Assembly (NCBI RefSeq): GCF_020711235.1
Contig: NZ_JAJFAV010000010.1
Location: 62,001-126,000, forward strand
DNA length: 64,000 nt
DNA from: Hymenobacter sp. 15J16-1T3B
Lineage (GTDB): Bacteria > Bacteroidota > Bacteroidia > Cytophagales > Hymenobacteraceae
Reading direction: 5' to 3'
The notes under the pieces were generated by a model. It had not been told where the DNA came from. It did no database searches and saw only the letters and a list, made by a program, of their open reading frames with translations. Below are positions 4,349 to 24,033 of this stretch, one piece after another. The stretch's first letter is position 1, and every line of letters begins with the position of its first letter. Position numbers and translations under genes: made by a program.

Positions 4349-5476
4349 TCAGGCGGCGGCTACTTTCGTTACGTCCTGGCCCTGAATGGCGGCGGCCATG
4401 AGCGCCGGAAACTTGTCGGGCGTGCAGGCAAAGGACGGAATGCCCAGCGCGGCCAGCTTCTCGGCTACCGAACGGTCGAAGCTCGGGGCGCCTTCGTCGC
4501 TCAGGGCCAGCAGCACCACCACCGTCACGCCGGCGGCCTGCAGCTCGGCGGCCCGGCGCAGCAACCCGGCGGGGCTGCCGCCCTCGTACAAGTCGCTGAT
4601 GAGCACCAGGATGGTGTCGGTGGGGCGGGTGATAAGCTGCTGGCAGTAGCCCAGGGCCAGGTCGATGTCGGTGCCGCCGCCGAGCTGCACCCCGAAGAGC
4701 AGGTCCACCGGGTCCTGTAAATCCTCGGAGAGGTTGGCCACGGCGGTATCGAACACCACCATGTGGGTGCGCACCGCCTTGATGGAAGCCAGCACCGCCC
4801 CGAACACGCCCGCGTACACCGCCGAGGCCGCCATGGAGCCGCTCTGGTCCACGCACAGCACGATTTCCTTGAGCGCCTGCCCGCGCTTGCCGTAGCCCAC
4901 CAGCCGCTCGGGAACGACCGTGCGGTGCGTGGGCTGGTAGTGCTTGAGGTTGGCCCGGATGGTGGCGCCCCAGTTGATTTCGCGGTACTTGGGGCGTGGG
5001 TTGCGCACGGCCCGGCTCAGGGCGCCCTGCACGGCCTGCCGCAGCGGGTTGGCCAGTTGCTGCTCCAGGTCCCGTACCACGCGCTGCACCACCTCGCGGG
5101 CGGTGTGCTTGGCTTTGGCGGGCATCACCCGGCCCAACGACATGAGCAAGCCGACCAAATGCACGTCGGGCTGCACGGTGCGCAGGATTTCGGGCTCCTG
5201 CAGCAGCTGGTTCAGGCCCAGGCGCTCCATGGCGTCTTTCTGCATCACGGCCACCACCGAGGAGGGGAAGTACTGGCGGATGTCGCCCAGCCAGCGCGAC
5301 ACGCGCGGGGCGGAGGCGCCCAGGCCGCCGCGCCGCTCCTGGCTGTGCTCGTCGTAAAGCTGGGTGAGCACCTCGTCCATGCGGCCGTAGTCGGGGGAGA
5401 AGGGCACGGCGTTGGCGGCGTCGGCGGCGGAGCCGAGGACGAGCTTCCAGCGGGCGGTGTGGTCGGCAGCGGACAT
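4349..5476 (-). CDS. VWA domain protein of the MoxR/SWIM/DUF5682 system
   Basis: A 375-aa cytoplasmic protein with a C-terminal von Willebrand A domain. The metal-ion-dependent adhesion site is intact: D210-x-S212-x-S214 (CVDQSGSM), T269 (GGGTD) and D295 (ISDLYEGG). The N-terminal 200 residues are helical. Such VWA proteins act with MoxR AAA+ ATPases as substrate adaptors; E. coli YehP is the counterpart I would name. The start is ATG 5476 (MSAADHTARWK); a longer frame to 5791 crosses into the divergent aminopeptidase gene and is unlikely. It is separated from its presumed partners (DUF5682 at 8637, MoxR at 12141, DUF5691 and SWIM further on) by an M1 peptidase gene on the plus strand. Confidence 0.9.
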   Translation of the reverse strand: MSAADHTARWKLVLGSAADAANAVPFSPDYGRMDEVLTQLYDEHSQERRGGLGASAPRVSRWLGDIRQYFPSSVVAVMQKDAMERLGLNQLLQEPEILRTVQPDVHLVGLLMSLGRVMPAKAKHTAREVVQRVVRDLEQQLANPLRQAVQGALSRAVRNPRPKYREINWGATIRANLKHYQPTHRTVVPERLVGYGKRGQALKEIVLCVDQSGSMAASAVYAGVFGAVLASIKAVRTHMVVFDTAVANLSEDLQDPVDLLFGVQLGGGTDIDLALGYCQQLITRPTDTILVLISDLYEGGSPAGLLRRAAELQAAGVTVVVLLALSDEGAPSFDRSVAEKLAALGIPSFACTPDKFPALMAAAIQGQDVTKVAAA

Positions 5477-5687
5477 TAGGCGGAAAATCAGCGAGTGAGG
5501 GAAAGCGGCGAGGCGGGCGGCGCCTGGGCATCGGGGGCGGCTGGGGCGCGGCCAGCACGCGAAGCCGGCGGTTGGGCTGGCAAGTACGCAGGGGAAACCG
5601 GGCCAGGCAACTCCTGGGCGCGCCCGGCGGGCCAGGGCGGTAGCTGCGTGGCCGCGTTTCGGGTAATTTCGGGCTTTTGCTCCTCGC

Positions 5688-8375
5688 ATGAAACGACGCC
5701 ACCGCGCCCTACGCGGCTGGGGCGCCTGGCTGCTGCTGGGCGCTGCCGCCTGCACCAGCACCCGCCCCGCCCGGCCCTTGGACGCACCCAAGGAAGCCGA
5801 AACCGCGTCGGCGGCCCCCGTGCCCGTAGAACCGGGCGTGAGCCGCGCCCTGGCCGAGTATCGCCGGCAGCAGCTCAGCGGCCTCGGCTACGCGTTGCAG
5901 TTGATGGTGCCAACGGAAAAACGGGCGGACATCGTGGCTTCGGAAATCATCCGCTTCCGCTTGAAATCCGTGGCGCAACCGCTGCAGCTCGATTTCAAAG
6001 AGCAGACAGAGCGGCTGCAGCGCCTGACGGTGAACGGCCAGCCGGTGCCCATCGACCACCGCGACGAACACCTGATTATTCCCGCCGCCGCGCTGCGCGT
6101 GGGCCCGAATGAAATCAGTATCGAGTTCCTGGCCGGTAACCTCTCGCTCAACCGCAACGACGACTACCTCTACACCCTGCTGGTGCCCGACCGCGCCCGC
6201 ACGGTGTTTCCGGTGTTCGATCAGCCCGATCTGAAGGCATCCTTTCAACTCCGGCTGCATGTGCCCGGCGGTTGGCAGGTGCTAACGAATGCCCCGCTGA
6301 CTTCGATCCAGCCAACCGTCGACGGGATGGTGCCGGACGCGGAAATCTACTCGTCCGCCCCGTCCGACACCATTAGTACTTACCTGTTCAGCTTCGTGGC
6401 GGGCAGGTTTCAGGCCGTTGACCAAAGCGCCGCCAGCCGCAACATGCGCCTGCTGCACCGCGAAACCGATCCGGACAAGCTGCGCCTGAGCCTGGGGCCC
6501 ATCTTCCAGATTCACCGCGACGCGCTGAGCTTTATGGAGCGGTACACCGGCATCCCTTACCCGTTCAAGAAGCTCGACTTCGCTGCTCTGCCCGACTTTC
6601 AGTACGGCGGCATGGAGCACGTCGGAGCCATCGACTACAAGGCCAGCACGCTGTTTTTGGACGCCGGTGCCACCCAGGACCAGCTGCTGGCCCGCAGCTC
6701 GCTCATCAGCCACGAAACGGCCCACATGTGGTTTGGCGACCTGGTGACCATGCGCTGGTTTGACGACGTGTGGATGAAGGAGGTGTTTGCCAACTTCATG
6801 GCCGACAAAATCACCCAGGTAGCCGTGCCGGGGGCCAATTACGACCTCAAGTTTGTGGTGGACCACTACCCGGCCGCCTACGGCGTGGACCGCACCGCCG
6901 GCGCCAACCCCATCCGCCAGAACCTCGACAACCTGCGGGATGCCGGCTCGCTCTACGGCAACATCATTTACCACAAGGCGCCCATCATGATGCGGCAGCT
7001 GGAGCGGCTGATGGGCGAAGAGGCGTTCCGCCTGGGCTTGCAGGAGTACCTGAAGAAATACGCTTTCGGCAACGCCAGCTGGCCCGAGCTCATTCAGATC
7101 CTGGACGCGCGCACGCCCGCCGACCTGCAGGCCTGGAACCAGATGTGGGTGAACCAGCCCGGCCGCCCGATATTCGACTACGAGCTGAAAACCGACGCGG
7201 GCACGATTACCAGTCTGGCCCTGACGCAGCGGGCCGAGGACGGCTCTACGCGCCTCTGGCCGCAGCTGGTTGAGCTGCAGCTGGTGTACGCCGACGGCCG
7301 CCGCAAGGAGCTGACGGTGAACATAAATCAGTCGCGGGTGGCGGTGCCCGCGGCCGCCGGGGAGCCGGTGCCGGCGTTTGTGCAGTTCAATTCCTCGGGC
7401 CTGGGCTACGGCGTGTTTCCGCTGGACGACCAGCTGAATCTGCCGCGCCGCTACAGCTACAAGGAACTGGGCCAGGTGCTGGGCCAGCGCCTGGCGCTGC
7501 TGCCCGAGCCGGTGGCGCGGGCGGCGGCCTACGTCACCCTCTACGAAAACGTGCTCAACCGCCGCTACCTCACCCCGCGCACCTTGCTCGACGTGTACCG
7601 GCAGCGCCTGCTGCACGAGCGGGAGGAGCTCAACCTGCGCCTGCTCACCGGGCAGCTCGGCGACCTGTACTGGAAGTTCTTGTTGCCGGCGCAGCGCGCG
7701 GCCCTGGCGCCCACGCTGGAGCAGGAGCTGTGGCGGGCCCTGGAGCAGAACCCGGCTCCGAATCAAAAGAAGCTGTTGTTTAAGGCCTACCAATCGGTGG
7801 CGCTGAGCCGCGCGGCCCAGCAGCGGCTCTACCAGGTGTGGGAGCGGCAGCAGCCGCCCGCCGGTGTCAAGCTCACCGAAGACGACTACACCGCCCTGGC
7901 CCTGGCGCTGGCCGTGCGCGACTACCCCGCGCCGGACCCCATTCTGCCCCGGCAGCTCAGCCGCATTCAGAACCCCGACCGGCAGCAGCGCCTGCGCTTC
8001 CTCATGCCCGCCCTCGCGCCCGAGCAGGCCACCCGCGACGCCTTTTTCGCCGGGCTGGCCGACGAGCACAACCGCGAGAAGGAAGCCTGGGTGGTGTCGG
8101 CGCTGGGCTACCTGCACCACCCGCTGCGCGTGGCCGCTTCCGAAAAATACCTGCCCCAGAGCCTCGCTTTGCTGGAGCAGATTCAGCAGACCGGCGACAT
8201 TTTCTTTCCCTACAGCTGGCTGCAGGCGACGCTGGGCTACTACCAGACGCCCACCGCCGCCAATACCGTTCGCGACTTTCTGGCCGCCCACCCGCAGTAC
8301 AACCCCAAGCTGCGCGCCAAGCTCCAGCAAGCTGCCGACGACCTGTTCCGGGCCGAGCAGCTGACGGCGCAGTAG
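5688..8375 (+). CDS. M1 family zinc metallopeptidase, lipoprotein
   Basis: An 895-aa aminopeptidase N-like protein exported as a lipoprotein: the N-terminus MKRRHRALRGWGAWLLLGAA is followed by a lipobox ending in AAC, so it probably sits in the envelope. The zinc site is complete: H342-E343-x-x-H346 (HETAHMWFGDL) with the third ligand E365 (MKEVFAN). The exopeptidase motif reads YGGMEHVGA, with H in place of the usual N. The C-terminal third is the helical ERAP1-like region. The gene is divergent from the VWA gene and convergent with DUF5682, sitting inside what is otherwise one functional cluster. A box reading TAATTTCG at 5664-5671, 17 bases before the ATG, is a possible degenerate promoter. 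Confidence 0.95.
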   Translation: MKRRHRALRGWGAWLLLGAAACTSTRPARPLDAPKEAETASAAPVPVEPGVSRALAEYRRQQLSGLGYALQLMVPTEKRADIVASEIIRFRLKSVAQPLQLDFKEQTERLQRLTVNGQPVPIDHRDEHLIIPAAALRVGPNEISIEFLAGNLSLNRNDDYLYTLLVPDRARTVFPVFDQPDLKASFQLRLHVPGGWQVLTNAPLTSIQPTVDGMVPDAEIYSSAPSDTISTYLFSFVAGRFQAVDQSAASRNMRLLHRETDPDKLRLSLGPIFQIHRDALSFMERYTGIPYPFKKLDFAALPDFQYGGMEHVGAIDYKASTLFLDAGATQDQLLARSSLISHETAHMWFGDLVTMRWFDDVWMKEVFANFMADKITQVAVPGANYDLKFVVDHYPAAYGVDRTAGANPIRQNLDNLRDAGSLYGNIIYHKAPIMMRQLERLMGEEAFRLGLQEYLKKYAFGNASWPELIQILDARTPADLQAWNQMWVNQPGRPIFDYELKTDAGTITSLALTQRAEDGSTRLWPQLVELQLVYADGRRKELTVNINQSRVAVPAAAGEPVPAFVQFNSSGLGYGVFPLDDQLNLPRRYSYKELGQVLGQRLALLPEPVARAAAYVTLYENVLNRRYLTPRTLLDVYRQRLLHEREELNLRLLTGQLGDLYWKFLLPAQRAALAPTLEQELWRALEQNPAPNQKKLLFKAYQSVALSRAAQQRLYQVWERQQPPAGVKLTEDDYTALALALAVRDYPAPDPILPRQLSRIQNPDRQQRLRFLMPALAPEQATRDAFFAGLADEHNREKEAWVVSALGYLHHPLRVAASEKYLPQSLALLEQIQQTGDIFFPYSWLQATLGYYQTPTAANTVRDFLAAHPQYNPKLRAKLQQAADDLFRAEQLTAQ

Positions 8376-8395
8376 TAGAAGGCAAAGAATTTCGT

Positions 8396-8604
8396 CCGTC
8401 ATCCCGAACAGCGCGAACCGAAGGTCGGCGTAGCTAAGGACCTTCCTCCAGCCCGGCACCAATCGAAAAGTGCAGCCACCAACGCCCGGATGTTGGTGGC
8501 TGCACTTACATATTACTGCCGTTACCAAAAAAGCGTCAGTACTTCGTCGGTAGCGGCGGTGCAGGGTGTGAGGAAGGTCCTTCGGCTGCGCCGCAGGATG
8601 ACGG
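8396..8604. repeat. Palindromic intergenic repeat element, copy A
   Basis: A 209-base imperfect palindrome between two convergent genes. The ends are inverted repeats (CCGTCATCC 8396-8404 / GGATGACGG 8596-8604), with a second pair inside (8436-8448 / 8570-8582) and a perfect 16-bp central hairpin (8468-8483 / 8492-8507, 8-base loop). The reverse complement aligns along its length with copy B at 63166-63368. It carries no ORF. It may be a MITE-like or REP-like element and could also act as a bidirectional terminator here. Confidence 0.85.
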
Positions 8605-8636
8605 CCTGCTTTTCATCCGATGCCGTGGGCGTCTAA

Positions 8637-10970
8637 TCACGCTACGCCCAGCAGCTCGCGCAGCACCGGCAGCACCCGGTGCGCCCGTTCCAGGTCCAGG
8701 TCGACGAGCTGAGTGGCCGGGCCGGCGCCGGGGCCGCTGACGGCCAGGGCCAGCACCTGCTGCCGCTCGGGCTGGCTGAAGTCGGCGAAGGCGCGGCGCA
8801 GCAGGGGCACGGTTTCCTGGAACGCTTCTTCCGCCAGGCCCGCCAGCCACGCATCGAGCAGGTCGAAGAGCGTGCGGTTGTGGATGAGCAGCAGGCCCGA
8901 GCCGCGCAGGAAGCCTTCGATCCAGGCGGTGGCGTAGGCGGTGGGCTGGGCGGGGGCCAGCGCCAGGCCGAGCAGGCGGGCGGTATCGTCGGCGGGTAGT
9001 TGCTGGGCGTCGAAGAGCAAGCGGGCGGCGACTCCGGCCAGCAGACCGCTGCTGGTCGGCTGCCGGGCCACGGCCTGCAGGGCGGCGTACCAGTCGGCGT
9101 GCTGGCTGTCGTCGGGCAGCAGGCGCACGGCCTGGTGGGCGGCTTCCAGGCTATCGAGCAAGGCGCGGGCCGCGTCGACGTCGAGGCCGGTGGTGGCCAG
9201 CGGCAGCGAGATGCAGAGGCGCGGCACGAGGTGGTGCACCACCTGCGCCACCTGCCCGGCTTCGGTGCGGCGCACGTTGCCGTAGCGCAGCACCTGCACC
9301 AGCGGAGGCAGGGCCGCGAGCAGGTGGGCCACGTCGCGGGTGCCGGCGCTGATGGTTTCGAGCCGGGCCACCAGCGCGGGCAGGGCGGGGGCGAGGTCGG
9401 CGCGCAGGGCTTCTTCCAGCAGCTGGCTGATCTGGCCCAGGTCCTGGGCCTCCTGGGCGCGGTGCCCGGCGGCGGCGCTGGCGGCCGCAAGGATGGTATT
9501 GCCCCAGCGCCCGGCTTCGAGCACGGCCAGTACCAATTCGGGCCGCCACTGCAGCTCCCACACTTCGTGGAAGGTGCCGCTCTTGCCCGACACCCGCTGC
9601 GGCCGGCCCCAGCGCACCCCGAGCAGCTGCAGGCGGTGCAGCAGGTGGCTGCGGCCCAGGTCGGTGTCCTTGCGCAGGTCCAAGGTCAGGGTTTTCTGGG
9701 TGGCTTCGGGTTTGAGGCGCAGGGCCTTCTGCTGCTGCGCCAAGTCCTGCTGCAGGGGCGAGGCCGGCAGTTCTTCCGGCACCTCGCCCAGCTTCTCGCC
9801 GATGACGAGCTGCTGGTGCACCAGGTCCAGGGCTTCGGCATAGCCGCCCCCGAAAATGCTCACCGCCGCTTCCTGCAGCTCCTCGATGCCCGGCAGGGCC
9901 AACCCGCGCACGGCCGCCAGCGCCTCCGCCAGCCGCACTCCTTCGATGGCATGGGCCGAGGAAGCGTCAATCTGCGCCGCCCGCAGCAAGTGCGCCGCCC
10001 GCACCATCCAGTGCGTCACCACCGTGGCGTGGGGCTGCTCGAACAGCAGCTCGTACCAAGCCGGCGACAACACGCCCGCCCCGTAGCCCGACTGCCGGGC
10101 CAGCCGCTCGTAGGTCCAGGGCACCCAGGTGGCTTCGGTCGTGACCTTTTTCAGCCCCTTCAGCCGGGCCTTGTCGTCTTTGGCGTAGCCGGCCAGGCCC
10201 TCGATGCGCAGCACCGGCGCGTGCCAGGCCCCGCAGACCACCGCCGCGCGCTGGTAGCCCTGCTTCAGCGTGGCGCGCAGCGTTTCGCGCATGTAGGCCT
10301 CGCGCAGCAGGGTTTCCGCCGATTCGGGCTGGGCCAGCTCCTCGCGCAGGGCCGTCATCATCTGCAGCACCACCGCGAAGGCGTCGGCGTGGCCGGCCGA
10401 GTGCTCGATGCGCGCCTCCCACCACCGCTCCCCGTCGGCGTAGCCGTCGAGCTGGGCCAGGTGGCCAATGGGGTCGAGGCGCAGCGGGGCCTCGGCTCTC
10501 GGCCCGCCCTCGGCAGTAGCTGCGTCAGCGGGCTGGGTATTGGGAACGGGAAGGGCTTCAGTTTCCGCGGCCTGGGCGGCTTCGTCCGTTTCCTCCGCAG
10601 GCGCAGCGGTGTCGCCTGGCACATGCTCCACCGAGTCGGGCAGGGCGAAGCGCAGGGTCATGGGCAGGTCGAAGGCGCGCAGGTGGGCGCCGTGCTGCTG
10701 GCACCAGCGCACGGCCTGCCACTCGGGCGAGAAGTAGGCAAAGGGGAGGAACGTGGCCTGCTGGTGCTGCTTGGGGTTATAAACGAGCAGGGCCACCGGC
10801 GGCTGCAGGGCCGCGTTGGCTACTTCGGCCAGGGCCTTTTCGCCGTCGGCGGGGCACTCCAGCAGCACGATGTCGGGCTGGTACGCATCAAGCGCCTGCA
10901 GCAGCGAGGCGGTGCTTCCGGGGCCGTGGTGGCGGATGCCGTAGAGGCGCAGGTCGGTGGGCATACTCAA
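8637..10970 (-). CDS. DUF5682 family protein
   Basis: A large (about 777-aa) cytoplasmic protein of unknown biochemistry, recognised by the N-terminal signature YGIRHHGPGSTASLLQAL and by its neighbours. Members occur beside MoxR ATPases, VWA and SWIM proteins; E. coli YehM is the counterpart I recall. An acidic Ala/Pro-rich stretch near residues 115-165 (EETDEAAQAAE) looks like a flexible linker. The start could be ATG 10970 (overlapping the upstream stop as ATGA) or ATG 10964 (MPTDLRLYG). The 4-base overlap with the upstream propeller-like gene implies translational coupling, although that gene is not a usual member of the cluster. Confidence 0.9.
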   Translation of the reverse strand: MSMPTDLRLYGIRHHGPGSTASLLQALDAYQPDIVLLECPADGEKALAEVANAALQPPVALLVYNPKQHQQATFLPFAYFSPEWQAVRWCQQHGAHLRAFDLPMTLRFALPDSVEHVPGDTAAPAEETDEAAQAAETEALPVPNTQPADAATAEGGPRAEAPLRLDPIGHLAQLDGYADGERWWEARIEHSAGHADAFAVVLQMMTALREELAQPESAETLLREAYMRETLRATLKQGYQRAAVVCGAWHAPVLRIEGLAGYAKDDKARLKGLKKVTTEATWVPWTYERLARQSGYGAGVLSPAWYELLFEQPHATVVTHWMVRAAHLLRAAQIDASSAHAIEGVRLAEALAAVRGLALPGIEELQEAAVSIFGGGYAEALDLVHQQLVIGEKLGEVPEELPASPLQQDLAQQQKALRLKPEATQKTLTLDLRKDTDLGRSHLLHRLQLLGVRWGRPQRVSGKSGTFHEVWELQWRPELVLAVLEAGRWGNTILAAASAAAGHRAQEAQDLGQISQLLEEALRADLAPALPALVARLETISAGTRDVAHLLAALPPLVQVLRYGNVRRTEAGQVAQVVHHLVPRLCISLPLATTGLDVDAARALLDSLEAAHQAVRLLPDDSQHADWYAALQAVARQPTSSGLLAGVAARLLFDAQQLPADDTARLLGLALAPAQPTAYATAWIEGFLRGSGLLLIHNRTLFDLLDAWLAGLAEEAFQETVPLLRRAFADFSQPERQQVLALAVSGPGAGPATQLVDLDLERAHRVLPVLRELLGVA

Positions 10971-12064
10971 TCAATCATCCGCAGGGCACGGCCGTCGAAT
11001 AGGCCAATGCCGTCGTTCTGAGAAAGGAAAACCAACGTGTTGTCGGCGGTAAAAGCTATTTTCAACACATTCATCGGAGAGCCAACCGCGTCACGCTGAC
11101 CGTTGGTCCAGTGCAACTTGGGCTGCACCACTTTTTCCCAATTCGCCAGCCTTGACAAATCGGACTGGGCGGGGCCGCGAAAAATGCCGTTCTGCGAGTA
11201 AAAATACAGGCATTGATTGGAGGCGTTAAAGGCACCGGGCCCGATGTATTCGCCGGATTTGACAAAGAACTTTCCGTCGGCAGAATCCCGTGCAGCTTCG
11301 CTCTGCAGAAGGAAACGAGCCTGCAAGTTGGTAAAGCCCACAATGCAGCCGCTCGCAGTGAAATGATGCAAGCCGCAGGTCAGATAGACAGTTGAATTTG
11401 CTTCGAATATGGATTTGATTGGGTTCAATTCGATGCGAAATTCGCCAAAGTCGGGAGCCAGGAACTGTTTCTCCTGGGTGTCGAAAACGAAGACGTTGCC
11501 ACCCCATTCGCCGTAGCCAAAGCCGACCCAGATGCGGTCGGCGCTGTCGATAAAATAAGCGGCCGGCTTACCCCAGGTCGACTGCAGGTTGATTTGGGAG
11601 TTGGGCGACTTTTTGGGGAAATACACTTTGCCCGAAGAAGCCGCCCCAATGCCCGCAGTTGTAATGGTAAACAGGTTGCCTTGTCTGTCACTCAGAATGC
11701 CAAACGCCGAATGGGCCGCCGTGCGGTTGATTTCCTGCTCTCGTTTGCCCACGTCTTCACCGTTAGGGAGCACCGATACCTTGGTGCCTTTGAGAAGAAT
11801 AACGTTGTTGTGGGTATCCTTCGAAAAGGCATCGGCCACCAAGTGCCGACTGTTATCAACCTGGTTGGGTTGGTCGAGGGCAATGATCTGAATGGCGCCA
11901 GAACTGGTAAGTCCCCAAACTTGGTTGCCTACCGTGAGGATATCCCGGTAGCCGTTGCTCGCCGGAGGATAGCGGTTGATGCTGACCGGACCGGCTGAGC
12001 TGGTCAAGGTCATGAGCAAACAAGCAACGAAGAGCCGAACAACAGACTTGACGTGCATAAGCAT
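10967..12064 (-). CDS. Secreted beta-propeller-like hypothetical protein, low GC
   Basis: A 365-aa protein with an N-terminal signal peptide (about residues 1-25, RLFVACLLMTLTSSAG). Repeated segments such as GILSDRQGNLFTIT and FIDSADRIWVGFGYGEWGG resemble two-component-regulator propeller blades, so a beta-propeller is likely; no catalytic residues are evident. It is not a known member of the MoxR-SWIM cluster, yet it lies between MoxR and DUF5682 on the same strand and its TGA overlaps the next ATG. Its GC content is visibly lower than both neighbours, and the overlap plus composition suggest insertion into an existing operon. Function unknown. Confidence 0.82.
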   Translation of the reverse strand: MLMHVKSVVRLFVACLLMTLTSSAGPVSINRYPPASNGYRDILTVGNQVWGLTSSGAIQIIALDQPNQVDNSRHLVADAFSKDTHNNVILLKGTKVSVLPNGEDVGKREQEINRTAAHSAFGILSDRQGNLFTITTAGIGAASSGKVYFPKKSPNSQINLQSTWGKPAAYFIDSADRIWVGFGYGEWGGNVFVFDTQEKQFLAPDFGEFRIELNPIKSIFEANSTVYLTCGLHHFTASGCIVGFTNLQARFLLQSEAARDSADGKFFVKSGEYIGPGAFNASNQCLYFYSQNGIFRGPAQSDLSRLANWEKVVQPKLHWTNGQRDAVGSPMNVLKIAFTADNTLVFLSQNDGIGLFDGRALRMID

Positions 12065-12140
12065 AGCTGTGCAGAGAGTGGGGTGATGCGTTTTTCGTTA
12101 TTTGATGCGGAAAGGCACCCGTTTACACACCCACTTCCTG

Positions 12141-13241
12141 CTACTCCACCACCTCCCGGCAGGCCCGGTACAGGTCCTTCCACCCGTCACGCTCCTTCAC
12201 CACGGTTTCCAGGTACTCCAGCCACACCACGCGGTCCTGCACCGGGTCTTTCACCACGGCACCGGTGAGGCCGGCGGCCAGGTCGGCGGCCTGCAGGGTG
12301 CCGTCGCCGAAGTAGGCGGCCAGGGCCAGGCCGCTGTTGAGCACCGATATGGCCTCGCCGGTGCTCAGCGTGCCGCTGGGGCTTTTGAGCTTGGTTTTGC
12401 CGTTCTCCGTCACGCCGGCGCGCAGCTCCCGGAACACCGTCACCAAGCGGCTGATCTGCTCCAGGGCGGCCGTGGTGGGCGGCAGCTGCAGGGCCCGACC
12501 GGTTTTCTCCACCCGCGACTGCACAATCTGCACTTCCTCGGCCACCGAAGTCGGCAGCGGCAGTACCACGGTGTTGAAGCGGCGGCGCAGGGCGCTGCTG
12601 AGCTCGTTCACGCCCTTGTCGCGGTCGTTGGCGGTGGCAATGACGTTGAAGCCGCGCGTGGCCTGCACCTCGGTGGCCAGCTCCGGCACCGGCAGCACTT
12701 TTTCGGAAAGGACGGTGATGAGCGTGTCCTGCACGTCGGCCGGGATGCGCGTCAGCTCCTCGATGCGCACCAAGGCCCCGTCCTGCATGCCTTTGAGCAG
12801 GGGCGAGGGCACCAGGGCCGCGGCCGAGGGGCCTTCGGCAATCAGGCGGGCGTAGTTCCAGGAGTAGCGAATGGCATCCTCCGAGGTGCCGGCCGTGCCC
12901 TGAATGAGCAGGTTCGAGTGCCCGCTGATGGCGGCCGTCAGGTGCTCCGACACCCAGCTTTTGGCCGTGCCAGGCACGCCGAGCAGGAGCAGGGCGCGGT
13001 CGGTGGCCAGGGTGGCCACGGCAATTTCCATCAGCCGCCGCTGCCCGATGTACTTGGGCTCGATCGAGACACCGTTGTCGAGGGTGCCGCCGAGCAGGTA
13101 CGTGACCACGGCCCAGGGGGAAAGCTGCCAGCCGGGGGGCTTGGGCCGGTCGTCGGCGGCGCGCAGGGCGGCCAGTTCTTCGGCGTACTGCACCTCGGCG
13201 TGGGGGCGCAGGATGTGGTCGGTAGGGGGCGTGGCAGGCAT
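12141..13241 (-). CDS. MoxR-type AAA+ ATPase
   Basis: A 366-aa AAA+ ATPase of the MoxR branch (E. coli YehL-like). Walker A is GVPGTAKS (residues 88-95), the Walker B region is ALVRIEEL (156-163; a glutamate stands where most MoxR proteins have the first acidic aspartate), sensor 1 is IATANDRD (N205), and ALRRRF around 218-222 supplies the arginine finger. Such ATPases remodel protein complexes together with VWA partners. Start ATG 13241 (MPATPPTDHIL) is chosen because the family-like sequence starts there; the frame is open to 13850 but overlaps the DUF5691 gene. It lies 80 bases downstream of DUF5691 on the same strand. Confidence 0.95.
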   Translation of the reverse strand: MPATPPTDHILRPHAEVQYAEELAALRAADDRPKPPGWQLSPWAVVTYLLGGTLDNGVSIEPKYIGQRRLMEIAVATLATDRALLLLGVPGTAKSWVSEHLTAAISGHSNLLIQGTAGTSEDAIRYSWNYARLIAEGPSAAALVPSPLLKGMQDGALVRIEELTRIPADVQDTLITVLSEKVLPVPELATEVQATRGFNVIATANDRDKGVNELSSALRRRFNTVVLPLPTSVAEEVQIVQSRVEKTGRALQLPPTTAALEQISRLVTVFRELRAGVTENGKTKLKSPSGTLSTGEAISVLNSGLALAAYFGDGTLQAADLAAGLTGAVVKDPVQDRVVWLEYLETVVKERDGWKDLYRACREVVE

Positions 13242-13321
13242 GGCGGAGAGGTAAGGGGAGGTAGCGTGGTAAAGCTGGAGGTTGAATCGGGGAGCTGGCA
13301 GCAGTTGATGGGCGGCGGGGC

Positions 13322-14862
13322 TTAGCTGTCTGGCCCCGGCGGCTCGGCGAGGGTACCGGCCAGCTGCTGGCGGAAATACAGCGCGTCGAGCAGCTGGTTG
13401 ATGGGTTGGTGCAGGGCGGTTTCGACCTCGCCCAGGGGCCCCAGGGCGTCGGCGCAAAGCGAGTACTGCTCGGGCGGCACGGCCAGCTGCATGTGGCGCA
13501 GCAACTGCAGGAGGCGGTAGTGAAACGCGTAGCGGGGGCCGGCGGCGCCGAGCGTGTGCTCGACGATGCGCACGGCCTGCGCGGTCAGGGCCGGGGGCCA
13601 GGGGCCGGGCAGGCCAAAGAGCAACGGTTCCCAGCGCGCTTCGGGCTGGGTGAGGCGCGGCTGAGGCGGCAGCTGCGCCAGCAGGATGTCGGCCAGCTCG
13701 GCCGGGCTGAGCAGCTCGGCCAGCGCGGCGGGCAGCAGGGGGGGCAGTTCGTCGCGCTCCAGCTGCAGGACGAGGTAGGCGCGGGCCCAATCGGCGGCGC
13801 GGTGCAGCTGCAGGGCGTGGCGCCAGGCCGTCAGCAGCAGGGCGGCCCACTCGCCGTCGGCGGCCAGGGCCAGCAGCCGCTGGGGCGTCTGGCCAAAATG
13901 CGCGGCCCAGCGCGCCGGCGGAATCAGGGCCAGCAGCTGCCCCAGCCAGGCAGCTTTTTCCCCGCCGAAGCGCGCATCCTTGGGCTCGATGCCGAGGGCT
14001 TGCCAGGCAGGGTCCCAGGTCTCGGGCAGGCTTACTTCGAGCCGGGCGGCGCCGAGCAGCGGTTTTTTCAGCGTCAGCCGCGGCGCCGCGTGCTGCCAGA
14101 GCTGCTCCACCAGGGCGTTGCCGGGCGTGCGCACCAGCAGACTGGCCGCTTGCTGGCGCACGTCCTTGCTTTTGGACGCCAGAGCGGCTCCAGCAGCGGA
14201 GCGTCGGCGGGACGCAGATGCCCGGCGAGGGTGCCGAGCAGGGCGACTTGCTGCTTGGCCGGCTCCTGGGGCAGGGCTTCGGCCAGCAGCGCGCGGGCGC
14301 GGTCTGGCGCGTGCTGCATCAGGCCCAGCAGCACGGCGCGGCGCTGGGCGGGCGTGCCGGTGGCCCATGTTTCGTCGTCGGGGGCGGTTGCCAGCAGCGG
14401 CGCCCAGGCCGGGTTCAGCCCCAGCAGCCAGCGGCCCCGCGCGCCCAGCACGGCCGCTGCGGTTTCGCGCAGCTCGGGGCGGCCGTGGGCGTAGTCGAGC
14501 AGCGAGACGAGCAAGCGGTGCGGCACGCGGCGGCCGTGGGCGACCAGTTGGCGCAAGTAATCGGGCAACACCTCGGCGTGGTGGCCGCCGAGCAGTTGGC
14601 GCAGCAGCTCCTGACCTTGGGGGCCGAGCGTGGGCTGGGTTTCGGGTCCGGCGGCAGCAGGAGCAGTGTCCGCGGCGGCCAGGGCTTGGTAGCCGGCGCG
14701 CCGCAGTAGGGCCAGCGCGCCGGCGGTGCGCAGCACCCGGGCTTCGGCGGGCGCGTCAGCCGGGGCCGGCAGCTCGGGTAGGGCGGGCAGCGCGGCCCCG
14801 CTCTGGCGGGTGCCGAGCAAGGCCACCTGCAGTAGCTGGGGCCAGTCGGTGGCAGGGTTCAT
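13322..14862 (-). pseudogene. DUF5691 family protein, reading frame broken by a one-base frameshift
   Basis: The N-terminal part starts at ATG 14862 (MNPATDWPQLLQVALLGT) and reads in frame to LLEPLW near 14179. The remainder, from SKSKDVRQQAASLLVR to the stop at 13322, is in the -1 frame. Restoring one base (for example GGG for GG after CTCT, read on the minus strand) gives 513 continuous residues, the expected shape of this helical-repeat family. The start overlaps the SWIM gene stop as ATGA, so the two are translationally coupled. No classical X-XXY-YYZ slippery heptamer is present at the junction, so a real mutation or an assembly error is more likely than programmed frameshifting. Biochemical role unknown; found with SWIM, MoxR, DUF5682 and VWA genes. 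Confidence 0.85.
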
Positions 14863-16214
14863 AGCGCGGGAGTGGTAGCGGCGGGGGCCGGGGCGCCGGT
14901 GTAGGTGATGGGCAGCAGTGCGCGGCCGTCCCACTCGCCAAATACGTTGATGGGGTAGCCGCCGCTGACGGCCAGCAATTCCCACCCCAGCTCGCTGCTG
15001 GGGTGCAGCGGCAACTCCTGGCCGCTATCGGCGTGGCGCAGGTGCACGCCGCCCGCCGCGGTCCGCACGGGCACCACCTCGGTCAGCGTGGCGGGCCACT
15101 CGCGCAGCCAGGGGCGTTGGCCAAGGGCCGTGGCGTAGGCCTCGAGCACCGCGTTGGGCGCGCCGCCCGGGTCGAGAATGTCGTCGTGCAGGCCCTGAAA
15201 GGTCCAGTCGGCCGTGGGCACGGCGCGTAGGGGCAGGGCGCCGGGGTAAAAGGCCAGGCCGCCGCGGTACTGTCCTCCGGGCACCAGCGCCGTGGCGAAG
15301 GCCTGCCCGCCGAAGGCGTATTCCAGTACCAGCGCGTAGCGCCCGGTGCGCTGGCCCCACAGCCAGCTGCGGCGGGCCAGCAGCCGCTCTTCCTCGACGG
15401 TGACCTGGCCCAGCACCTGCCAGGTATCGGCCACGGCGGGCTGCCGCGCCAGCACGTCTTCCTTCTTCACGTTCACGCCCACTTGCTGCAGCACGTCGGC
15501 GCGCAGGGCCTCGGGCAGCTCGGCCAGGCGCCCGAAGGCGGCGGCCAGCAGGTATAATTCGCCGAGCCGGGCCAGCAGGCGGGCGGGCCAGTCGGCGCCT
15601 TGCTGGCGCAGCTCGGGCAGCTCCCGCAACGCCGCCGCCAACCCCGGGAGCTGGTCGTCGACGAGGCGGGCGGCCTGGTTTTCCCAGAAGCTGGCGGGCA
15701 ATTTTTCGGTCTGCGCCAGGCCCGCCCCAATCAGGTCGTGCAGCCAGCGCAGCAGTTCCGCGGCCCCGCGTTGCATGCGCTCCAGCCGAGCCGGCGCTAC
15801 CGCCACACCCGGCGCCGGTTCCGCCGCTGCCTCCGGGGCGGCCACCGGCTCGGCGGCCGGCGGCGCGGGGGCGGTTTTCTTGGCTTGCGCGTCGTGGCGC
15901 TTGTCGAGCCACTCCTGCAGCCAGGGCGGCGGGGTGGTGCCGGTCAGCAGTTGGGGCTGGCGGGCCAGCAGCAGCAGCAGCCCGGCGCCGTGCTTGCAGG
16001 GAAATACTCGGCTCGGGCAGGAACACTTAAAGGCCGGCTCGGTGAGGTCGATGCCGGTCTGGTAAGGTTTGGAACCGCTGCCCTGGCACTCCCCCCAGGC
16101 TGCCGTGTCGGTCCGGCCGAGGTGTTGCCACTTGGGCGGGCTAGCCAGCTCCAAGCCGCGCTTGAGCGTGCCGGCATCGGGAATGAGGGCGCGGGCCTGA
16201 TCTTCGGTCCACAT
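14859..16214 (-). CDS. SWIM zinc finger family protein
   Basis: A 451-aa cytoplasmic protein with a SWIM zinc finger: C64-x-C66-x6-C73-x-H75 (CSCPSRVFPCKH), a motif that binds nucleic acid or protein. An Ala/Pro-rich linker (about residues 120-150) leads to a long C-terminal domain (for example WLWGQRTGRYALVLEYAFGG) seen in this family. It is the first gene of the system in transcription order and resembles E. coli YehQ. Its TGA overlaps the ATG of DUF5691 by the ATGA arrangement. Confidence 0.93.
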   Translation of the reverse strand: MWTEDQARALIPDAGTLKRGLELASPPKWQHLGRTDTAAWGECQGSGSKPYQTGIDLTEPAFKCSCPSRVFPCKHGAGLLLLLARQPQLLTGTTPPPWLQEWLDKRHDAQAKKTAPAPPAAEPVAAPEAAAEPAPGVAVAPARLERMQRGAAELLRWLHDLIGAGLAQTEKLPASFWENQAARLVDDQLPGLAAALRELPELRQQGADWPARLLARLGELYLLAAAFGRLAELPEALRADVLQQVGVNVKKEDVLARQPAVADTWQVLGQVTVEEERLLARRSWLWGQRTGRYALVLEYAFGGQAFATALVPGGQYRGGLAFYPGALPLRAVPTADWTFQGLHDDILDPGGAPNAVLEAYATALGQRPWLREWPATLTEVVPVRTAAGGVHLRHADSGQELPLHPSSELGWELLAVSGGYPINVFGEWDGRALLPITYTGAPAPAATTPAL

Positions 16215-22917: not shown

Positions 22918-24033
22918 ATGGAGCTAATAGATCAACTCACCAATCTTGCTTCGCGGGTGCAAAAGCAAGTCGGACACATTCAAACGGAAGAGGCAACCAA
23001 AAATGCCCTGGTGCTTCCCTTTATCAACGCTTTGGGATATAATGTCTTCGACCCGACGGAAGTAGTGCCGGAGTTTGTTTGTGACATCGGTACCAAAAAA
23101 GGGGAGAAGGTCGATTATGCCATCTTCCGCGACGGGAAACCGATCATGCTAATTGAGTGCAAGCACGTCGGTGCGGACCTAAACATCAACCATGCTGGTC
23201 AACTGTTTCGCTACTTCCACGTCACCGAAGCACGTATTGCTATTTTAACCAACGGCGTCACATACAAGCTGTTCACCGATTTGGAGCAGCCCAATAAAAT
23301 GGATGAGCGTCCATTTCTGGAGTTTGATTTGTTTAACTTCCACGAAAACGACGTGACCGAACTCAGGAAGCTAAGCAAGGCTACGTTCAGCATAGACGAC
23401 ATGCTGTTTGCCGCTTACAACCTGAAGTACATGCGGGCATTCAAGAAGTACTTCGAAGAACAGTTTCACCAGCCTTCCAACGACTTCATTCACTTCGTTT
23501 CCAAGCAGATTTACGACGGGGTGTTGACGCCGAAACTGAAAGAGCAATTCAGCGCCTTGGTGCACCGCTCGTTTCAGCAATTCTTGAACGACAAGATTAA
23601 CCTGCGGCTGCGGGCAGCGCTGGTCGAGCCCAACAGCACCACAATACTTACCAGCGAATATGTGGCGGCGAAACCCGAAGAAACCGCCGTAGTAGCTGAA
23701 CCCGACGGCAAAGACAAGGATATCGTGACGACGGTTGAGGAAACTGAGGGTTTTATGATTGTGCGCGCTATTCTGCGGAAAATGGTGCCGGTAAGCCGGG
23801 TGGTGATGCGCGACGTGCAATCCTACTGCGGAATTCTGCTCGATGATAACAACCGCAAGCCCATCTGCCGCCTACATTTCAACGGGAGCAAAAAATTCGT
23901 TACCCTCTTTGATCAGGAAGGCGGCGAGAGGGTGGATATAGATTCATTAGACGACTTGTACGGATTGGCCTCGCGGATCCGGGCTGCGGTAGAGCGGCAC
24001 GAAACCCGAATCAAAGAAGCGCCGCTAGCATAA
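22918..24033 (+). CDS. Orphan type I restriction-like nuclease (HsdR N-terminal domain)
   Basis: A 371-aa cytoplasmic protein with an HsdR N-terminal-type PD-(D/E)XK nuclease fold: [18 protein letters not shown], then D of KVDYAIF and the ExK-type motif MLIECKHV (residues about 56-80). The middle is helical. The C-terminal part ([20 protein letters not shown], then IDSLDDLY) is the conserved tail of these stand-alone proteins. No helicase motor, HsdM or HsdS is nearby, so it is not a type I system; a role in phage or plasmid defence is inferred. GC content is distinctly lower than the flanking genes, suggesting transfer. It has its own promoter and terminator. Confidence 0.88.

Follow-up and report, generated by a model that had tools for sequence, protein, structure and literature searches.

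A co-inherited set of SWIM, DUF5691, MoxR, DUF5682 and VWA genes as a candidate ATP-driven remodelling machine in bacteria

Pairs of a MoxR AAA+ ATPase and a VWA protein are known as tools for cofactor insertion and remodelling. Two of them, CoxD-CoxE and NorQD, are described as metal-insertion systems (PMC7159879; PMC13036017; PMC9976466), and RavA-ViaA is a further remodelling system of this kind. In NorQD, as set out in the latter two papers, the VWA protein inserts a finger into the pore of MoxR, the adaptor is proposed to be twisted by ATP hydrolysis, and its metal ion-dependent adhesion site (MIDAS) probably holds the client. MoxR-vWA ternary systems have been proposed as conflict systems, and in about 70% of the vWA proteins of that study the vWA domain is reported to be followed C-terminally by an effector or scaffold domain (PMC7159879). 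One MoxR subfamily bears the name YehL (PMC3893208), and our searches found no job for this branch. In this work, we analyse a YehL-type MoxR gene and four companions, encoding a SWIM zinc-finger protein, a DUF5691 protein, a DUF5682 protein and a VWA protein, in a stretch of 64,000 nucleotides (hereafter the window) from Hymenobacter sp. 15J16-1T3B, whose genome assembly comprises 6.33 Mb in 42 contigs. An earlier note on this DNA, made from the sequence alone, had proposed that the five genes form one machine.

Compared with the described systems, the set shares with NorQ-NorD a MoxR ATPase and a VWA partner bearing the DxSxS-T-D residues, and differs from it in having three further constant partners, whereas NorQD, as described, serves one enzyme of its own operon. 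No constant client enzyme was found near the five-gene loci by clustering of flanking open reading frames (ORFs) and Pfam, and the client gene may lie elsewhere in the genome, or DUF5682 itself may be the client. With CoxD-CoxE the likeness is that the window VWA protein belongs to the VWA_CoxE Pfam family, and the difference lies in the extra SWIM, DUF5691 and DUF5682 components and in a molybdopterin-binding dehydrogenase that stands beside one locus only (L102). The ternary conflict systems (VMAP, iSTAND, beta-propeller) resemble the set in their MoxR-vWA core with further components and in a weak bpMoxR match of the window MoxR; this match is under the cut-off, and no further domain was found on the window VWA protein. 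The terms SWIM, DUF5682 and yeh are absent from the main text of the paper on MoxR-vWA conflict systems (PMC7159879). In the literature covered, which left out most subscription papers so that an earlier notice is possible, we found no paper on DUF5682 or DUF5691 and no function for the set. Two papers each name two or more of the four yeh genes, and one of these contains a table on genome reduction.

The closest relative in a model organism is the yehL-yehM-yehP-yehQ stretch of Escherichia coli, which the earlier note had named as a related set. For three genes the relation stands: with profiles built from the loci described below, YehL (MoxR), YehM (DUF5682) and YehP (VWA) score 283, 243 and 305 bits, and they lie in the same order on one strand. 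YehQ has a SWIM finger (31.5 bits) that the profile of the present SWIM family does not match, its gene comes last, DUF5691 is absent, and a DUF4132 gene, yehI, lies upstream of yehL. Of 5426 E. coli genomes, 5301 match the yehL-yehQ stretch and 5162 do so over at least 80% of its length, which argues for a stable host function.

Clustering and co-inheritance of the five families

A scan with a DUF5682 alignment over one genome per species (84,980 species) returned at least 544 relatives, of which 80 loci were kept. The five families were then counted with profiles built from the kept loci, matches on the other strand being set aside (one VWA, L060). All five genes, in the order SWIM, DUF5691, MoxR, DUF5682, VWA and on the same strand, occur in 41 of the 80 loci, and many of the remaining loci are cut by contig ends. 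The 41 loci cover Bacteroidota, Cyanobacteriota, Acidobacteriota, Chloroflexota, Planctomycetota, Pseudomonadota and Thermodesulfobacteriota, the last from a metagenome bin. Furthermore, Rhizobium etli and Deinococcus taeanensis have the same five genes annotated on plasmids, and for a Methylosinus plasmid, whose gene table is incomplete, no VWA gene is listed. Outside Hymenobacter, the median gaps between successive genes are 2, 27, 18 and -4 base pairs (bp), and DUF5682 and VWA are separated by no more than 60 bp in 33 of the 38 loci that hold both; in Hymenobacter the median gap between MoxR and DUF5682 is 2431 bp.

Presence across whole genomes gives the same picture. DUF5682 was found in 7 of 247 genomes of the phylum, and DUF5691 in all 7 of these as against 1 of the 240 DUF5682-negative genomes (p = 8e-13, uncorrected for kinship), the sole match among the negatives being one of 20 bits (G041). 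Among 28 relatives, both families are present in the same 8. SWIM, MoxR and VWA, at expectation-value (E) thresholds of 1e-5 for SWIM and 1e-30 for MoxR and VWA, are present in 13 of 13 DUF5682-positive and in 0 of 9 DUF5682-negative genomes; the positives are the union of the phylum and relatives lists, picked by DUF5682, the negatives were hand-chosen from the same lists, and owing to kinship the genomes are not independent. The association does not depend on adjacency alone: the five genes lie on five contigs in one genome (G018) and partly on different contigs in three others (G064, G188, G203), all of these being draft assemblies (G018 has 80 contigs, and its VWA gene is near a contig end). 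SWIM, DUF5691, MoxR, DUF5682 and VWA are inherited as one set, with a co-occurrence far beyond chance, as the earlier note had expected.

Conserved features of MoxR, VWA and their partners

In the MoxR alignment, the Walker A motif GxPGTAK[ST], an EE pair at Walker B (where the usual pair is DE), the sensor Asn and the arginine finger are invariant in all 17 rows. Aligned with E. coli YehL, the window protein has 43% identity (369 positions, E = 8e-88), and among nine Protein Data Bank (PDB) sequences the MoxR profile matches midasin and NorQ, the latter at E = 1.4e-4. The MIDAS residues of the VWA protein, DxSxS-T-D (D207, S209, S211, T266, D292), are likewise invariant in 19 of 19 rows, E. 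coli YehP included, and the earlier view of an AAA+ motor and a VWA protein with an intact metal site is borne out. The VWA profile found no match in the PDB at E 0.01. Over its 375 residues the window VWA protein yielded only VWA matches in Pfam, reaching near its end, and no further domain.

The SWIM finger (CxC...CxH) is conserved in its four ligands, C64, C66, C73 and H75, in 20 of 20 rows, although the window protein scores 17.0 bits against the Pfam SWIM model, under the cut-off of 19.6. SWIM and DUF5691 are fused in one ORF in four Hymenobacter loci (L035, L036, L038, L041) and in one locus of Isosphaeraceae (L105), thus in two phyla, which suggests that the two act together. A first mixed alignment was dropped, its DUF5691-only rows having aligned partly onto the SWIM half; in the replacement, such rows come from eight Hymenobacter loci and from no other genus. 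By a structure model of a relative and its structural matches, DUF5691 is predicted to be an ARM/HEAT-like solenoid of helical repeats.

DUF5682 combines two parts. Its structure model (predicted local distance difference test 86.6, predicted template modelling score 0.83) shows an ARM/HEAT-like solenoid in the C-terminal half. All 42 rows of the alignment, E. coli YehM and a Rhizobium protein among them, share six residues without exception: G9, H12, E36, R221, G245 and H248. In the model, G9xxH12 directly follows strand 1, E36 lies close to where strand 2 ends, and G245xxH248 comes behind a further strand. In TraB, GX2H is the name of a motif that is present twice and is accompanied by a Glu. 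In TraB proteins from relatives, the succession of GTxH, E, RN and GAxH parallels that of DUF5682, with 26 residues from the first His to the Glu (24 in DUF5682) and 25 from the Arg to the second His (27 in DUF5682). DUF5682 thus has in common with the TIKI/TraB/ChaN superfamily a pair of GX2H motifs, a Glu some 25 residues past the first His and an Arg about 25 before the second; it differs in its long C-terminal solenoid, and the profile and fold comparisons described below gave no significant or recognised match. Enzymes of the TIKI superfamily are described as using a 2His/2Glu set (PMC6254334). As judged from these motifs, the resemblance is a lead at motif level, not membership. The earlier description of two large helical scaffolds agrees with the models of DUF5691 and of the C-terminal half of DUF5682. 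DUF5682 is probably more than a scaffold.

A proposed five-component machine and its rivals

We propose that the five proteins form a remodelling machine consisting of a MoxR motor, a VWA adaptor, a SWIM-DUF5691 receptor and DUF5682 as a putative hydrolase, and we give this reading a probability of roughly 0.4. The set membership, the motor residues and the metal-site residues on which it builds were obtained directly by computation. The MoxR ring would burn ATP, and the CoxE-like VWA protein would dock in this ring and grip the client via its Mg2+ site, as is thought for NorD on NorQ. SWIM and the DUF5691 solenoid would serve as the receptor that selects the client, which, once opened by the motor, would be acted on by DUF5682, a solenoid with a TraB/TIKI-like putative hydrolase. 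Alternatively, the motor might open and activate DUF5682 itself; DUF5682 would be the catalytic or cofactor-bearing part. That the set represents a new class of ATP-driven processing machine, in which a MoxR-VWA motor feeds or activates a hydrolase of TraB/TIKI type and a SWIM/ARM-HEAT receptor picks the client, is a more specific claim that we hold to be doubtful. If it were true, such a machine would span at least eight bacterial phyla, some of them known from metagenome bins, and a reduced form of it would be present in nearly all E. coli. The co-inheritance of the five families, one fusion and a hydrolase-like pattern would turn families of unknown function into a single testable machine. 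As the related stretch is present in 5162 of 5426 E. coli genomes, the test can be made with ordinary K-12 deletions.

Several observations weigh against a five-component machine with a hydrolase. DUF5682 stands without the others nearby in at least five loci whose flanks are complete (L046, L052, L061, L084, L093), and the E. coli control genome gave no DUF5691 in the profile search. In one positive genome (G188) the DUF5691 match is under the cut-off and the SWIM match is partial, running over model positions 135-420 and leaving out the finger. The SWIM-DUF5691 fusion is the only sign of physical contact. As for the hydrolase, one of the eight TraB rows (L139) is without the first GX2H, and the N-terminal domain of DUF5682 showed no significant similarity to TraB or ChaN-like profiles (probability 0.2 and 0.4%); the TraB-ChaN positive control failed likewise at 0.2%, and the profile comparison therefore has no power. 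No TIKI-fold entry was recognised among the 50 rows shown per Foldseek/VIA list, rows that mainly cover the solenoid and exclude nothing. Profile searches of the PDB with the DUF5682 and TraB alignments also gave no meaningful match.

The main rival, and a real rival although we consider it unlikely, is a chaperone for cofactor insertion or maturation of the CoxD-CoxE type, in which MoxR and VWA would pull a metallo-enzyme open for the insertion of a metal or cluster and DUF5682 would be the cofactor carrier or the client, its two His and its Glu binding metal or haem instead of catalysing hydrolysis. The CoxE-like VWA protein (165 bits), the metal-insertion role described for CoxD-CoxE and NorQD, and the invariant His/Glu pattern of DUF5682 are all in line with it. 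So are the molybdopterin-binding dehydrogenase gene beside SWIM (L102, 403-2757), the Fe-S assembly genes that flank some Chitinophaga loci, and E. coli molR, which is named for molybdate use and adjoins yehI. On the other hand, no metallo-enzyme is a constant neighbour. In a comparison of near and far neighbours at loci with at least four core genes, which drew on 120 near ORFs out of 122 and on all 103 far ones and set aside 33 loci with fewer core genes, the Hymenobacter loci and two near ORFs of more than 1500 amino acids (aa), SufE accounted for 3 of the 120 near ORFs, and the molybdenum enzyme is limited to one locus. All 13 genomes that have the set contain DUF5682, which likewise weighs against this rival, though these genomes were picked by DUF5682.

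It is improbable, in our view, that the genes encode two separate units, MoxR-VWA on the one side and SWIM-DUF5691 or DUF5682 on the other, that act in one pathway and not as one machine. E. coli, which has no DUF5691 and a different SWIM protein, would fit this division, as would the fact that SWIM-DUF5691 is the only fusion noticed. Against it stands the near all-or-none presence of the families in 22 genomes, also across contigs, with the weak matches of G188 and the 20-bit DUF5691 match of G041 as exceptions, and the genes overlap or nearly touch one another.

A conflict role, which the earlier note had raised for MoxR-VWA modules, found little support, and an anti-phage system in which a MoxR-VWA switch releases an effector seems quite improbable. 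The idea draws on the ternary systems proposed as conflict systems (PMC7159879), on the weak bpMoxR match mentioned above and on the patchy distribution of the set (7 of 247 phylum genomes). It draws also on TIR, GmrSD and DUF4011-nuclease genes directly after VWA in three loci, on SUKH proteins, a DNA methylase and an under-cut-off HsdR-like protein within the cluster of some species, and on the larger number of PADLOC families matched by near neighbours (85) than by far ones (59). Most of the near families listed, however, share one name, PD-T4-6, and among the 25 families listed none matches more than 2 of 120 near as against 4 of 103 far neighbours; no clear enrichment was seen. No PADLOC family was matched at E 0.01 by ten window ORFs, the other DUF5691 piece or E. 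coli YehI, YehL, YehM, YehP and YehQ. Nor did the VWA protein show a further domain of the kind common in MoxR-vWA systems, and a scan of the window proteins gave no VMAP, iSTAND or beta-propeller Pfam match over the cut-off, though a domain without a model would escape it. Moreover, the E. coli set recurs, with coverage of at least 80%, in 5162 of the 5426 genomes, unlike a turnover-prone defence gene.

Finally, a part in RNA repair or in the response to nucleic-acid damage, together with RtcB and RlaP or with proteins of the DUF4132 family, is very unlikely. Pointers to it are the RlaP and RtcB genes directly upstream of SWIM (L009, and two RlaP genes in L011), the frequency of RlaP (3 of 7 DUF5682-positive genomes as against 14 of 240 negative ones, p = 0.008), DUF4132, which adjoins VWA in 6 of 80 loci and is present in E. 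coli as yehI, and the reported rise of a Deinococcus radiodurans DUF4132 protein after mitomycin C (PMC8533742). As RtcB accompanies the set in a single locus and RlaP in two, and neither is found in the 80 loci L030-L109, the idea is kept only as a minor rival; moreover, 4 of the 7 positive genomes have no RlaP, and DUF4132 occurs in 1 of 7 against 7 of 240 genomes (p = 0.21).

The window locus and its neighbours

The proposed five-component machine is encoded in the window as listed in Table 1. The earlier note had placed the five families on one strand between 4349 and 16214, with overlapping stop and start codons of the first two; both points are confirmed, the SWIM stop and the DUF5691 start sharing ATGA at 14862-14859. 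Its reading of the genes as one set is supported, but the window copy is not one clean operon, the M1 peptidase gene and the 365-aa ORF being interposed.

Table 1. Genes and ORFs of the five-gene locus, with positions in the window.
Feature	Position	Strand	Remarks
SWIM zinc-finger protein, 451 aa	14859..16214	-	N-terminal SWIM finger and large C-terminal region
DUF5691 protein	13322..14862	-	Two frame pieces, 187 and 183 bits; ARM/HEAT-like solenoid predicted from a relative's model
MoxR AAA+ ATPase, YehL type, 366 aa	12141..13241	-	AAA_5, 120.6 bits
365-aa ORF without Pfam match, outside the proposed machine	10967..12064	-	At the MoxR/DUF5682 junction
DUF5682 protein, 775 aa	8637..10964	-	DUF5682, 809 bits; N-terminal alpha/beta domain, C-terminal helical solenoid
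M1-family peptidase gene, outside the proposed machine	5688..8375	+	Peptidase_M1, 167 bits; between DUF5682 and VWA
748-aa ORF, antisense to the M1 peptidase	6282..8528	-	No family match
VWA (CoxE-like) protein, 375 aa	4349..5476	-	Complete MIDAS; VWA_CoxE, 164.7 bits

The two interposed ORFs, the antisense 748-aa ORF and the frame break in DUF5691 had not been mentioned in the earlier note. For the interposed plus-strand gene, an assignment as a TonB receptor was ruled out by Pfam, which gives an M1 peptidase. The frames of SWIM, MoxR, DUF5682 and VWA are all open, unlike that of DUF5691, which is split: profile positions 1-224 match in one frame and 223-488 in another, the first part starting from the ATG at 14862 and the second running to 13322. 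In an alignment over the break with the relatives L012 and L013, the window is net one base short near 14185, and DUF5691 is a single open frame in the seven other positive genomes among the relatives searched. The break may reflect a genuine mutation or an error of assembly. In G005, the VWA gene likewise seems split over two frames (L010, 5035-6146).

The MoxR/DUF5682 junction is a variable site in Hymenobacter. Relatives of the 365-aa ORF occupy the same junction in three loci (L010, L034, L039), and other genes are found there in other species; inserted junction genes were seen in L014, L030, L034, L035, L036, L039, L040 and L081. In Hymenobacter these include SMI1/KNR4-type (SUKH) proteins, an HsdR-like protein under the cut-off and an oxidoreductase, and in Allochromatium the junction holds a C5 DNA methylase. 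Elsewhere in the window, a 371-aa HsdR N-terminal-like protein (57 bits) is encoded at 22918-24033 on the plus strand.

No constant sixth partner emerged, the widest flanking-ORF cluster outside Hymenobacter comprising 8 loci. DUF4132, the commonest flanking Pfam family (6 of 120 ORFs), is represented by a protein of about 970 aa encoded within about 70 bp after VWA on the same strand in L067, L077, L097, L099, L104 and L109. It was considered as a sixth component and dropped: it stands beside the set in these six of the 80 loci and in E. coli, yet in only one of the seven DUF5682-positive genomes of the phylum.

Other neighbours vary from locus to locus. Directly upstream of SWIM and on the same strand lie RlaP and RtcB genes in L009 (967-4340) and the two RlaP genes in L011 (1221-3130), and TldD/TldE-like peptidase genes are directly upstream of SWIM in a Leptolyngbya locus (L050, 2212-5015). 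The genes directly downstream of VWA include one for a TIR protein (L102, 10711-11937), one for GmrSD (L091, 12757-14415) and one for a DUF4011-helicase-nuclease of 1562 aa (L103, 13383-18068). In E. coli MG1655, yehH is a pseudogene, and the E. coli plasmid pF17EC0245-1 (L131) holds a copy of the chromosomal block around yehI-yehQ together with btsS. A Streptomyces plasmid (L130) carries DUF4132, a very large 'DNA-binding' protein, an AAA ATPase, a DUF5682 protein of 1257 aa and a further protein, an arrangement that is possibly a third form of the set.

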